A program made the translations under genes and the position numbers. Below are positions 14,757-46,480 of a stretch of 51,580 nt of DNA, piece after piece; position 1 is the first letter of the stretch, and each line of letters starts with the position of its first letter. Source of the stretch: Gammaproteobacteria bacterium (lineage in GTDB: Bacteria > Pseudomonadota > Gammaproteobacteria > SURF-13). Location of the stretch: contig JACPZD010000013.1 in assembly GCA_016195665.1 (NCBI GenBank), positions 1-51,580 of the forward strand, read 5' to 3'. The notes under the pieces were generated by a model that was given only the letters and a program-made list of their open reading frames with translations, did no database searches and was not told the DNA's origin.

Positions 14757-15692
14757 ATGCAGGACGCTGAACAAGTTTGGCTGGAGCGTTTTTTCAACCA
14801 TCTCATCCACGAGCGGAATCTCTCGCCTCACACAGTAACGGCCTACCGTCACGATCTGGAAAGGCTGGTTGAATTTTGCGATGCCGGAAATATTTCCGAG
14901 TGGCGTGCATTGAACGGCCGCCAGGTGCGCGGTTTTGTGAGCAGCGGTCAGCGCAGCGGTTTGGGCGGCCGCAGTCTGCGGCGGCGATTGTCCGCGGTGC
15001 GCGCATTCTACAACTACTTGATGCGTGAAGCAGCGCTTACCAACAATCCGGCGCTGGGCATCCTCGCGCCCAAGTCGGGGCGCCGGCTGCCGGCTACCCT
15101 GGATGTAGATCAAATGGCGCGCTTGTTGGATATCAAAATGACGGAAGGACTGGCGTGCCGCGATCGCGCGCTGATGGAGTTGTGTTATTCCTCGGGCCTG
15201 CGTCTGGCCGAGCTGGTCGGGTTGGATGTGCGGGATATTGATCTCACCGACGCCACGGCACGCATCACCGGCAAGGGCAATAAAGTGCGTGTCGTGCCAA
15301 TTGGCCGCTATGCCCGTAGCGCGCTGCAGACTTGGCTTAAGGAGCGCATCAAGTCCGCGAAAGAAGACGAGCCCGCGCTGTTCGTCGGCCGGCGCGGGAA
15401 ACGCTTGACCGCGCGCGCAGTCCAGTTGCGGGTGCGCGAGTGGTCCCAACGGCAGGGGATGGACGCGCCGGTTCATCCGCATCAGTTGCGACATTCTTTT
15501 GCGAGCCACCTGCTGGAATCGTCCGGCGACCTGCGCGCAGTGCAGGAACTGCTCGGCCATGCCGACATCAGCACCACCCAGATCTACACCCACCTCGACT
15601 TTCAGCACCTGGCCAAGGTGTATGATAAGGCGCACCCTCGCGCTCGTAAAAGCAGAGAAAAGATACAAGATACAAGAGAAAAGAAAATATGA
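14757..15692 (+). CDS. xerC: Tyrosine recombinase XerC
   Basis: This encodes 311 residues, with XerD resolving chromosome dimers at dif. The N-terminal SAM-like domain (about 1-95) has ERNLSPHTVTAYRHDLERL. The catalytic domain has the Arg in YSSGLRLAELVGLD, Lys in GKGNKVRVVP, His-x-x-Arg in HPHQLRHSFASHLL, and His with the Tyr nucleophile in LGHADISTTQIYTHLDF. Family members end near KAHPRA. The extra tail KSREKIQDTREKKI is encoded by the left arm of an intergenic hairpin, so the native stop was probably lost on its insertion. The gene follows DUF484 by 4 bp. It is the housekeeping recombinase, not a mobile integrase. Confidence 0.96.
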   Translation: MQDAEQVWLERFFNHLIHERNLSPHTVTAYRHDLERLVEFCDAGNISEWRALNGRQVRGFVSSGQRSGLGGRSLRRRLSAVRAFYNYLMREAALTNNPALGILAPKSGRRLPATLDVDQMARLLDIKMTEGLACRDRALMELCYSSGLRLAELVGLDVRDIDLTDATARITGKGNKVRVVPIGRYARSALQTWLKERIKSAKEDEPALFVGRRGKRLTARAVQLRVREWSQRQGMDAPVHPHQLRHSFASHLLESSGDLRAVQELLGHADISTTQIYTHLDFQHLAKVYDKAHPRARKSREKIQDTREKKI

Positions 15693-15760
15693 GATAACCA
15701 AAAAGGCCTACGGTTTTTTTACCTTGTACCTTGTACCTTGTATCTTTTCCCTTGTATCTG
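15656..15760. repeat. Long hairpin of iterated GATACAAG/GGTACAAG units
   Basis: The left arm (about 15656-15683) contains AAAAGATACAAGATACAAG. The right arm (about 15722-15760) contains its near-complement, CTTGTACCTTGTATCTTTT, differing at one wobble position, and has an extra unit. The loop is about 38 nt. It bridges the xerC 3' end and the MFS gene and is closely related to the hairpin at 44225-44292. Confidence 0.8.
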
Positions 15761-15767
15761 TTTTTAT

Positions 15768-28109: not shown

Positions 28110-28565
28110 ATGATAGACAGCCCTCGGATTGAGCTCGTCAAAAACAGCTTTGACGTGGACGATATCGTGTTTCACGGCCTCATGGCGCTAGGCGTATTGA
28201 AGGAACTGGGTATCAAATCGAGTGGTCCGCAGCACAAACGCTGGTTCAAGTTCATGCAGCGCACCGGGCGGTTCAGCGAAGCCCCGGATTATCCCGCCTG
28301 GACTAAAGACGAATTTCTGGAATATACCGCGATCGTTTTGGCAATGAGCGACCCTGATGTACAGGGAAGAGCGGCAGCGAAGGGTTCTACTAATGTCGCG
28401 GGAGGCGGGATGCCGGGAGCGACCGCCCACCCTCTGTTCCCCTATGCGCGCGACGGGGTGGCGGCCATCACTGAATTTACATTAGAACACTTGCGCGATT
28501 ACGAGCATCTCATCAACGTCGGCGCCAGCATCAACCGTCCGCCTTACGAAATAATAAGGATATAA
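28110..28565 (+). CDS. Unrecognised protein carrying a 23-codon inserted element
   Basis: This encodes 151 residues, or 128 without the element at residues 83-105. The sequence before it ([41 protein letters not shown]) and after it ([23 protein letters not shown]) looks like a small soluble alpha-helical protein. I do not know the family. It sits 19 bp after ubiH and 5 bp before aroC, so it belongs to the same transcription unit. No membrane segment or signal is seen. The element lies between two helices, where an insertion could be tolerated. Confidence 0.75.
28356..28424 (+). repeat. Protein-coding repeat element, copy 1 (69 nt, 23 codons)
   Basis: The segment encodes [11 protein letters not shown] then [12 protein letters not shown]. 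It is read in the same frame as the copies in trpA and dedD. Its last 29 bases (GTCGCGGGAGG through GGGAGCGAC) form an inverted repeat with GGGA on both sides of an inner stem. Compared with the 51-nt form it has an extra 18 nt, AAGAGCGGCAGCGAAGGG. Confidence 0.85.
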
Positions 28566-42427: not shown

Positions 42428-43364
42428 ACAGCGCCCCGCGCGAGAAAGTCAGGGTCCAGCCTGAACAAGCGGGCAATCGCATCACGCACTGCTTTGACCG
42501 GTTGCGCGCGCAAGGGCGCAAGGCGCTGATCCCGTTTATCACCGCCGGCGATCCGAGTCCGGAAGTGACCGTGCCGTTGCTGCGCGCGATGGTAAGCGCG
42601 GGTGCGGACATCATCGAATTGGGTGTGCCGTTTTCCGATCCGATGGCCGACGGCCCGGTGATTCAGCGCGCCAGCGAACGTGCGCTTAAACATCACATGA
42701 GCCTGCGCCACACGCTCGATTTGGTGCGTGAATTTCGTATCAACGATAACGTCACCCCCATCGTACTCATGGGCTATCTCAATCCCATTGAGGTCATGGG
42801 TTACGATACCTTCGCGCATGCCGCGCGAGAAGCCGGCGTGGATGGCGCGCTTACCGTAGACATGCCGCCCGAAGAGGCGCAGGATTTGATCCACGCGCTG
42901 CGCGCGCAGGGTATCGCGCCCATCTTCCTGCTTGCACCCACCAGCACGCCGGAGCGCATTGTAAAGATCAGTGCGCTGGCGCAGGGCTATCTCTATTACG
43001 TTTCGTTAAAAGGCGTGACCGGCGCGGCGACGCTCGATGTCGAGGACGTCGGGCGCAAGCTTATAGATATCCGGGCGATCACCTCGTTGCCGCTCGGCGT
43101 AGGCTTCGGCATCAAGGACGCCGCCTCCGCCGCGAGCATCGCCGAACTCGCCGACGCCGTCATTGTGGGCAGCGCGCTGGTCCAGAAAATCGAGGCGCTC
43201 ATCGCACAACCCGGCCAGATCCTCTCCGAAATACCCGCGCTGTTGAAAGAGATGCGCGCGGCGATGGACAAGGCGACTTCCGACGCACAAGGAAGAGCGC
43301 TAGCGAAGGATCCTGCTAGTGTCGTGGGAGGCAGGATGCCGGGAGCGACCGGCGCCGCCACGCC

Positions 43365-43368: not shown

Positions 43369-44222
<854 letters not shown>

Positions 44223-44224
44223 GT

Positions 44225-44292
44225 AAAAGATACAAGGTACAAGATACAAGCAATTAAGGGCTGCTCTTTTTTTCTTGTGTCTTGTATCTTTT
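44225..44292. repeat. Hairpin of iterated GATACAAG units between accD and folC
   Basis: Left arm AAAAGATACAAGG plus TACAAGATACAAG (44225-44250); right arm CTTGTGTCTTGTATCTTTT (44274-44292). Loop about 23 nt. Closely related to the hairpin at 15656-15760. It ends 18 bp before the folC start. Confidence 0.8.
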
Positions 44293-44309
44293 CCCTGTCC
44301 CCTGTATTT

Positions 44310-45638
44310 ATGCGCTTTACTACACTCGCCGACTGGTTGTCCTGGCAAGAGACCTTACACCCCAAAAAGATAGATCCGGGCCTGGAGCGCTCGGGCGAGG
44401 TGTTGCGCCGTATGGGCCTGAAGCCTCAGGCGTATACGGTCATCACCGTCGGCGGCACCAACGGCAAGGGTTCCAGTGTGGCGATGCTGGAGGCCGTCTT
44501 GTTGGCGGCGGGTTACCGGGTGGGCGCTTACAGCTCGCCGCATTTGCTGCGTTACAATGAACGCATTCGTGTTAACGGCATAGAGGCCACCGATGACGAA
44601 CTGTGCGCCGCCTTTGCCCGAATAGACGAGGCGCGCGGCGGGATCTCGCTCAGTTATTTTGAATTCGGTACGCTGGCTGCTTTTGACATTTTTCACCGGG
44701 CGGAACTCGATGTGGCCATACTGGAGGTGGGAATGGGCGGCCGGCTCGACGTGGTCAATCTGTTCGATGCCGACGCCGCGTTGGTGACCACCATCGGATT
44801 GGATCACATGGAGTGGCTGGGCCCGGACCGCGAGAGCATCGCCGCTGAGAAGGCCCGAATCTTTCGCCCAGGACGTCCGGCTATCTATGGTGAAGCCGAT
44901 CCGCCGCAGAGTCTTGTTGCTCATGCCAAAGAGATTGCCGCGCCGCTCTATTGTTTCAAGCGCGACTTTGATTATAAAACTCAGGGTCAAGACTGGTCGT
45001 GGTGGGGGCCGGGCCGTGTCATCGAAGCGCTGCCGATACCGGGATTGCAAGGTGGTTTTCAACTCCAAAATGCCGCAGCCGTGCTGATGACCCTGGAGAC
45101 ACTTGCGACGCACAGGGACGTGCTAGTGTCGCGGGAGGCAGGACACCGGGAGCGACCAGCGCAGTTGTCTGTGTCCGGGCACGACATTAAGCAAGGGCTC
45201 AGCACAGTGAACTTGCCGGGGCGTTTCCAGGTCTCAACGGGCACAGACATGGTCACGCGCATCTTCGACGTGGCGCACAATCCTCACGCCGCCGCCGCGC
45301 TCGCCCGGACCTTGCGCGAGCAGCCGTGCGCGGGCCGCACCCTGGCGGTGTTCAGTATGCTGGCCGATAAAGATATCGCAAGCGTGGTGCGGGAGATGCG
45401 CGATGTGGTGGATGCCTGGTATGCAGCGAGCCTCTCCGTGGAGCGCGGGAGCTCGGCTGAGCGGGTGGCGCAACACGTGCGGGATGTCATCCCCGAGGCC
45501 GAGGTATACAGCAGCCATGAGACGGTGGAACAGGCCTATCACGCCGCGTTGCTTGCGGCGGGGGCGCAAGACCGGATAGTGGTGTTTGGTTCGTTTTATA
45601 CTGTCGCCGAGGCGCTGCGTCAGGACTATAATAAGTAA
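44310..45638 (+). CDS. folC: Bifunctional folylpolyglutamate / dihydrofolate synthase, carrying an element
   Basis: This encodes 442 residues. It adds glutamate to folates and makes dihydrofolate. ATP-loop sequence is VGGTNGKGSSVAMLEAVL; AYSSPHLLRYNERIRVNG, FEFGTLAAFDIF, VAILEVGMGGRLDVVN and TTIGLDHMEWLG follow, with FDVAHNPHAAAALA in the C-domain. Residues about 267-283 (HRDVLVSREAGHRERP) come from the inserted element, read in a different frame from its other copies, in a loop before IKQGLSTVNLPGRFQV. ATG 44310 is used; upstream frame is repeat sequence. Confidence 0.94.
   Translation: MRFTTLADWLSWQETLHPKKIDPGLERSGEVLRRMGLKPQAYTVITVGGTNGKGSSVAMLEAVLLAAGYRVGAYSSPHLLRYNERIRVNGIEATDDELCAAFARIDEARGGISLSYFEFGTLAAFDIFHRAELDVAILEVGMGGRLDVVNLFDADAALVTTIGLDHMEWLGPDRESIAAEKARIFRPGRPAIYGEADPPQSLVAHAKEIAAPLYCFKRDFDYKTQGQDWSWWGPGRVIEALPIPGLQGGFQLQNAAAVLMTLETLATHRDVLVSREAGHRERPAQLSVSGHDIKQGLSTVNLPGRFQVSTGTDMVTRIFDVAHNPHAAAALARTLREQPCAGRTLAVFSMLADKDIASVVREMRDVVDAWYAASLSVERGSSAERVAQHVRDVIPEAEVYSSHETVEQAYHAALLAAGAQDRIVVFGSFYTVAEALRQDYNK
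45107..45157 (+). repeat. Protein-coding repeat element, copy 3 (51 nt), shifted frame
   Basis: Same sequence type as copy 4, length 51 nt. In the common frame it would read DAQGRASVAGGRTPGAT, but folC uses another frame, giving a wholly different peptide. Length divisible by three keeps folC open. Within the core, CAGGACACC replaces CAGGATGCC, weakening the inner stem. Confidence 0.85.
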
Positions 45639-45664: not shown

Positions 45665-46480
45665 ATGGAAGGGAATAAATTGAAGCAGCGCCTGGTGGGC
45701 GCGACGGTGCTGGTCGTTCTGGCGATAATCCTTATTCCCATGTTGTTGACGGGGGGGAAGGAAGACGATAGCAGCGTTGCCACTATACCGCCCAAACTGG
45801 ATACCGGCTTCAGCTCCAGGATCACACCGTTGGAACCCGCCCCTGCTCCACCGAAACCTGCCGTCATTGATAGCACGCCGTTGCCCGTGCCTGCTCCGTC
45901 TGCGGACAACTCTGCAGCGCCCGCCAGTGTGTCCCCGCAGATGAGTGAGAAGGCGCCGGGGGCCATCGCTACAGCGCCATCGGCAGATAAAACGGACACC
46001 CAGTCGGCCGCTAAATCCGACGACGTACAGGGACGTACTAGTGTCGCGGGAGGCAGGATGCCGGGAGCGACGTCACCCAAGCCGGATACCCTGCCCCAAT
46101 CCGATAAACCGGTGACCGATAAGCCGGTAGCCGACAAGTCACCCACAGATAAACCCAAGGCCGGTAAACCGGCTCCCAGCAAGCCGCTCGCTTCTGCGGC
46201 GCCAGCGGCAACCGCACCCTCCAATGAACGCATGAATATCACCGCCTGGATTATCCAGCTGGGCAGTTTCAGCAGCGAGCAGAACGCCCTGGCGCTGCGC
46301 GATCAATTGCGCGCCAAGGGCTATACGGCCTTCGTCGAGAAGATCAAGAGCGGCGACAGCCAGTTGTTCCGGGTGCGCGTGGGCCCCGAGCTGGAGCGCG
46401 CCCGCGCCGATGCCCTACGCGACAAGTTGGAAAAGGAAACCAAACAAAAGGGTATCGTTGAGCGCTATCCCTCCCCATGA
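45665..46480 (+). CDS. dedD: SPOR-domain protein DedD
   Basis: This encodes 271 residues. One N-terminal membrane helix (about 9-25: LVGATVLVVLAIILIPMLL) leads to a Pro/Ala/Lys-rich periplasmic linker and a C-terminal SPOR domain (about 190-270: AWIIQLGSFSSEQNALAL, KGYTAFVEKI, SQLFRVRVGPELERARADAL). SPOR domains bind denuded peptidoglycan at the septum. The linker holds the 17-codon element (120-136) and a short DKPVTDKPVADK repeat. Order folC-dedD-cvpA-purF is as in E. coli. Confidence 0.93.
   Translation: MEGNKLKQRLVGATVLVVLAIILIPMLLTGGKEDDSSVATIPPKLDTGFSSRITPLEPAPAPPKPAVIDSTPLPVPAPSADNSAAPASVSPQMSEKAPGAIATAPSADKTDTQSAAKSDDVQGRTSVAGGRMPGATSPKPDTLPQSDKPVTDKPVADKSPTDKPKAGKPAPSKPLASAAPAATAPSNERMNITAWIIQLGSFSSEQNALALRDQLRAKGYTAFVEKIKSGDSQLFRVRVGPELERARADALRDKLEKETKQKGIVERYPSP
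46022..46072 (+). repeat. Protein-coding repeat element, copy 4 (51 nt, 17 codons)
   Basis: Encodes [17 protein letters not shown] in the DedD linker. The first part contains two GACGTAC copies around AGG. The second part is the hairpin GTCGC-GGGA-GGCA-GGA-TGCC-GGGA-GCGAC, in which the two outer and inner stems pair fully and GGGA faces GGGA. The next codons are TCACCC of the host. Confidence 0.9.

Follow-up and report, generated by a model that had tools for sequence, protein, structure and literature searches.

The stretch of DNA analysed here (51,580 nt, referred to as the window) carries a short repeat within several of its genes, and the question is what kind of element this is and why its structure is retained. 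A sequence-only reading had placed a symmetric hairpin at 46022-46072. This hairpin is real (its 29-mer, GTCGCGGGAGGCAGGATGCCGGGAGCGAC, was found at 46043-46071) and it forms the 3' half of a longer unit of 51 nt that lies exactly at 46021-46071 on the plus strand and contains two hairpins, the second of which is the one described before. The consensus of the 51-nt unit is YGAC-GUAC-ANGGAN-GUAC-NART-GUCGC-GGGA-GGC-AGGAN-GCC-GGGA-GCGAC. Four copies of the 29-mer with 0-2 mismatches occur in the window, where shuffles predict none, and the corresponding features are located as follows.

46021..46071, plus strand: copy 4, 51-nt form, in frame in a SPOR-domain protein (Pfam SPOR); covariance model score 81.8 bits
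46025..46038, plus strand: hairpin 1 of copy 4, GUAC-AGGGAC-GUAC, with a hexaloop of the ANGGAN type and a C-G closing pair
46043..46071, plus strand: hairpin 2 of copy 4, with a 5-bp outer stem, a GGGA/GGGA internal loop, a 3-bp inner stem and an AGGAU loop
45106..45156, plus strand: copy 3, 51-nt form, translated in a different frame as part of a FolC-like Mur-ligase-family gene (HRDVLVSREAGHRERP)
43281..43349, plus strand: copy 2, 69-nt form, in frame in trpA, close to the 3' end, with an 18-nt insert in hairpin 1
28355..28423, plus strand: copy 1, 69-nt form, in frame in the gene of a 151-aa protein, upstream of an aroC-like gene

A Pfam search with the 151-aa host protein of copy 1 gave no match. 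In the whole source genome (2.38 Mb), the 29-mer was found in 104 copies at up to three mismatches while its reversed control gave none; a pattern search gave at least 103 copies and the covariance model 130 matches (E<=0.01). The 69-nt form, which has 18 extra nucleotides within hairpin 1, makes up about 15 of the roughly 100 copies in this genome, and both lengths are divisible by three. Some copies lie in tandem with a period of 51 nt. At four loci (L159, L151, L019 and L186) tandem head-to-tail and composite inverted arrangements were observed, where larger hairpins are possible. The window also contains another dispersed repeat, exemplified by AGATACAAGGTACAAGATACAAG, with direct and inverted copies at 15653-15767 and 44218-44311.

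The hairpin that had been proposed for copy 4 is reproduced exactly by RNAfold (-16.2 kcal/mol, z -1.9). Across the copies, the inner stem is better described as 3 bp with an AGGA[U/C/A] loop. The supposed fourth inner pair, A-T, does not hold as T is replaced by C or A in 57 of 103 copies; in these close copies the last loop base of hairpin 2 is U in 46, C in 50, A in 7 and never G. It had also been stated, correctly, that copies 1 and 2 vary only by changes that leave G-U pairs and that a change in copy 3 disrupts the inner stem. The further suggestion that a single-stranded structure is maintained is supported by covariation and by the preference for the sense strand described below. For a set of 94 distinct copies, drawn from the window and other genomes, none of 500 shuffles matched the covariation score of hairpin 1 and all slid versions collapsed. 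This set speaks to hairpin 1 only, since it was retrieved with the exact 29-mer and hairpin 2 therefore cannot be judged from it. Stem variants observed in hairpin 1 include GTAC/GTAC, GCAC/GTGC, GTGC/GCAC, GTCC/GGAC and AGCC/GGCT.

A covariance model built from the source genome's own copies and a few from other genomes (R1) identified divergent members in further gammaproteobacterial families. An alignment of 32 diverse members shows 14, 15 and 17 different versions of the respective stems. When pairing partners were shuffled, pairing in the three stems fell from 98, 95 and 100% to 72, 74 and 61% (p = 0.0002 each); the R1 model prefers structure and biases these percentages upward, while the new stems and the hexaloops in hairpin 2 are not imposed by it. 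The two-hairpin architecture is also predicted by RNAfold for unrelated sequences (e.g. L208, L226 and L215). Tandem G-A pairs in the GGGA/GGGA loop had been put forward as the focus of the structure; however, this internal loop is conserved only among close copies. Divergent members carry boxes such as GGUA/GAGA, GG/AGGA and GAG/AAA and keep the stems and the apical GGA loop, and the tandem G-A loop was rejected as the conserved core. Because the stems change completely across lineages and the loops are fixed, it is the fold that is under selection or recognised.

The element is a mobile insertion. The valS gene of the source genome (L160 7024-9915) holds two copies. At site 1 (antisense), the source genome has the 69-nt form and a relative (G398) the 51-nt form, while nine other aligned relatives (e.g. 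G400, G397 and G401) lack the element. At site 2 most relatives are empty and read GACUGC|GG, and G419 has the 69-nt form at the identical position. In the orthologue alignment, excision of exactly 51 or 69 nt recreates the empty sequence with the reading frame kept, and no target duplication was found at either valS site. A MITE, a class with terminal inverted repeats and target-site duplication, was rejected, as both valS sites are exact insertions of 51 or 69 nt with nothing duplicated. Members of the source family carry 16-49 copies per genome. In Sedimenticola hydrogenitrophicus, a cultured element-rich species, 47 copies were counted. As a separate observation, valS was hit at three different sites across the source genome, G419, G398 and G412, and may be a favoured target.

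Phage-borne spread was also rejected: a search of 50,697 phage records gave one partial match of 28 nt, and IMG/VR gave no exact one. A single plasmid copy was found, in Lonsdalea populi (L258 1501-1551), antisense within a DNA primase gene; its stems, GGAC/GUCC and GCGC/GCGC, are compensated. In another genome (G174, L205 1501-1550), a divergent copy lies in an apparently duplicated 5' part of tRNA-Leu, just upstream of the intact tRNA-Leu (1621-1707).

Placement in genes was assessed by a codon-usage test for a frame kept on both flanks, which put 43 copies of the source genome and 54 from other genomes clearly within coding sequence. None of these 97 copies contains a stop; the sense orientation is seen in 74 of them and the antisense in 23 (p 2e-7). 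Four of the six frames of the unit are free of stops. The peptide of the element is DVQGxTSVAGGxMPGAT. In the preferred frame, the element starts at the wobble base of a codon, invariably C or T, and ends with the codon ACN, which suggests that the flanking residues are kept on insertion. Tolerance of a particular peptide may account for part of the sense bias, because one common frame is used by 41 of the 43 sense copies from other genomes. These observations could be explained by neutral selfish DNA that encodes a harmless peptide, with the structure as a by-product of insertion chemistry and the RNA-binding protein CsrA, considered below, uninvolved. The strong frame preference and the kept flanking codons agree with such an explanation, and the Rickettsia palindromic elements (RPEs) behave alike (PMC10969869). 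However, we consider it quite improbable: the stems are wholly replaced among lineages with the loops constant, the element is translated in several frames and present on both strands, and the co-orientation excess persists even in copies with only one coding-scored flank (52:19, p 1e-4).

CsrA/RsmA is a dimeric translational regulator that controls the use of mRNAs. The repeat of CsrB, as reportedly described by Liu et al. in 1997, is CAGGA(U/C/A)G, and the U/C/A letter set of this repeat equals that of hairpin 2 of the element. The SELEX consensus of CsrA is RUACARGGAUGU, mostly in hexaloops on at most four contiguous base pairs, and RsmE binds the ANGGAN hexaloop; a dimer bridges two sites separated by 10-63 nt (PMC7652899). 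RsmN, a protein of the CsrA/RsmA family, binds RsmY at a GGA pentaloop (PMC3791407). The apical loops of the element have the same form, being ANGGAN hexaloops or GGA pentaloops closed by C-G on short stems. Hairpin 1 of copy 4, GUACAGGGACGU, differs from the SELEX consensus by a single change, U to C at the variable last base of the loop. In 94 copies from other genomes that were selected for A.GGA in the loop, the loop is C-ANGGAN-G with all four bases at loop positions 2 and 6 and the C-G closing pair in 93. Without selection on the loop, ANGGAN was observed in hairpin 1 of 72/85 short copies of the source genome and AGGA[A/C/T] in hairpin 2 of 80/85. In divergent members the loop of hairpin 2 is either ANGGAN or AGGAN, and the loops of the 32 diverse members include ATGGAT, AAGGAT, ACGGAT, AGGGAT, AGGAT and AGGAC. 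The variable T/C/A position of hairpin 2 falls where the CsrA motif allows any base. Furthermore, the GGA boxes of the 51-nt form are 22 nt apart, within the published bridging range, and this spacing would suit one CsrA dimer.

We also took a census of C-AN(xyz)N-G hairpins with the element masked. GGA ranked top of the 64 triplets in two independent sets (10 against a mean of 1.2 in the source genome's own loci; 29 against a mean of 4.2 in 835 kb of other loci), and therefore more hairpins of the C-ANGGAN-G class with other stems exist. A family of another class (f44; L199, L200 and L201) keeps the architecture, with AUGGAC or AUGAAC in the loop of hairpin 1 and two csrA matches per genome. 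Its hairpin 2 loop is ACGAC, without GGA, which counts against the CsrA reading. An RNA regulatory element evolved by the host for some other protein, for example in mRNA decay or translational pausing, would equally well account for covariation and sense bias, which suit any RNA ligand. We judge this very improbable, since the element agrees with CsrA sites in its loop, closing pair, stem length and the distance between its sites, csrA co-occurs with it, and in an Rfam scan of the window and nine loci no family, CsrB/RsmZ included, reached its gathering score over the element.

The csrA gene of the source genome is canonical; its 62-aa product has the RNA-contact residues L4 and R44. A second covariance model, R2, was made from the diverse members and searched in a sample of 397 Pseudomonadota genomes. 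It matched in 32 of them, all of which have csrA compared with 211/397 overall (hypergeometric 5e-10); these genomes are related, 19 of the 32 coming from one family and the whole from seven, and counting by family weakens the association. Beyond the 397, another 15 genomes with the element were tested, and 13 of them have csrA. It was not found in G401 (27 copies, 97% complete) or in Nitrosomonas eutropha (one copy); these two count against the CsrA reading. A comparison of the loop pattern with its reversed pattern over the 397 genomes showed strong enrichment in 13 csrA-positive genomes (besides G000) and one csrA-negative genome (G351), a count that is noisy in GC-rich genomes and is used as support only.

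A RAYT/IS200-type Y1 transposase could instead recognise the hairpins as signals in single-stranded DNA, in the manner of REPs, with the likeness to CsrA sites due to chance. Nine Y1_Tnp genes are present in the source genome, and 16 of 17 genomes with the element have one or more; the lack of target duplication recalls IS200/IS605 elements, and ANGGAN hairpins lie next to some of the six inspected Y1_Tnp genes. The element itself, however, is absent from all six loci, G401 has its 27 copies and no Y1_Tnp, there is no GTAG tag, and the flanks show a weak preference with no fixed tetranucleotide. In addition, a DNA signal alone predicts neither the sense-strand bias nor the free N positions of the loops, and we regard this explanation as unlikely. 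A GTAG REP with RAYT was excluded on the missing tag and the six empty loci. Near Y1_Tnp/RAYT-like genes, further hairpins of the C-ANGGAN-G class were noticed (L196 268-326 and L193 1907-2011), and one of them has a stem of 13 bp.

The element is thus read, with a probability of about two in three, as an RPE-like intragenic mobile repeat whose selected part is a predicted CsrA/Rsm-binding RNA. In the proposed mechanism, a 51- or 69-nt repeat inserts into the chromosome, mostly within genes, possibly mobilised by a RAYT-type Y1 transposase. The insertion is tolerated there as it adds a whole number of codons and can be read without a stop in four of the six frames. The transcript would fold into two small hairpins whose ANGGAN or AGGAN loops present GGA at a spacing of 22 nt, and a dimeric CsrA/RsmA should bridge both putative sites. 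We infer that CsrA probably binds the loops and that this binding may be the reason why they are kept. Two other points count against binding: ribosomes crossing the open reading frame would disturb hairpins in the middle of a gene, and in the fold predicted by RNAfold for the 69-nt form hairpin 1 is broken.

Possible roles are an mRNA decoy, masking of SD-like GGAGG boxes inside open reading frames and a part in spreading. As a less certain step, the approximately 120 copies might jointly act as a dispersed CsrA decoy on mRNAs. We put forward only tentatively that CsrA-binding modules spread through the coding genome act as such a decoy, with at least two sites per copy, or that CsrA masks the SD-like boxes and makes the element harmless in open reading frames. 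If the decoy reading is true, the transcription of hundreds of kilobases is tied to a global regulator. If the CsrA reading as a whole is right, this regulator is loaded with hundreds of mobile sites, and predictions of the CsrA regulon would need reinterpretation, as would the "extra" peptides that many proteins of Gammaproteobacteria carry internally or at the C-terminus. For intragenic repeats of the RPE type, we know of no reason for their conserved parts and of no partner. In the element, what is conserved matches the binding site of an RNA-binding protein that has been studied in depth, which makes the proposal directly testable.

The literal sequences of the element were found in no PMC paper, and no prior report connecting CsrA with repeats was found, among mostly open-licence papers. 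Among known repeats, GTAG and CGTC REPs are likewise short hairpin repeats of high copy number that are sometimes intragenic, but in the element the conserved part is the loop. CGTC REPs have a 5' CGTC tag, a stem of 8-9 bp starting with AT, a loop of 4-5 and a CCA tail, and are without a dedicated transposase (PMC3733652). This class was excluded, the element having a 4-bp stem and a hexaloop without the CGTC REP tag.

RPEs are alphaproteobacterial, and to our knowledge no enzyme that spreads them has been described. They are likewise short palindromic repeats in frame in unrelated and often essential genes, and in-frame intragenic insertion with empty orthologous sites was also found for the element. 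RPEs are about 150 bp long and lie in frame in protein genes (PMC10969869). The element, likened to them by description, has in contrast 51 or 69 nt, no target duplication and two hairpins with GGA loops.

CsrB/CsrC and RsmX/Y/Z are dedicated small sponge RNAs, and the target hairpins of CsrA lie in 5' leaders. These RNAs share with the element ANGGAN or CAGGA(U/C/A)G loops that are closed by C-G and occur several per RNA. Unlike the Csr/Rsm sponges, the two-site modules of the element are mobile, dispersed through the genome and located mostly in coding sequence.
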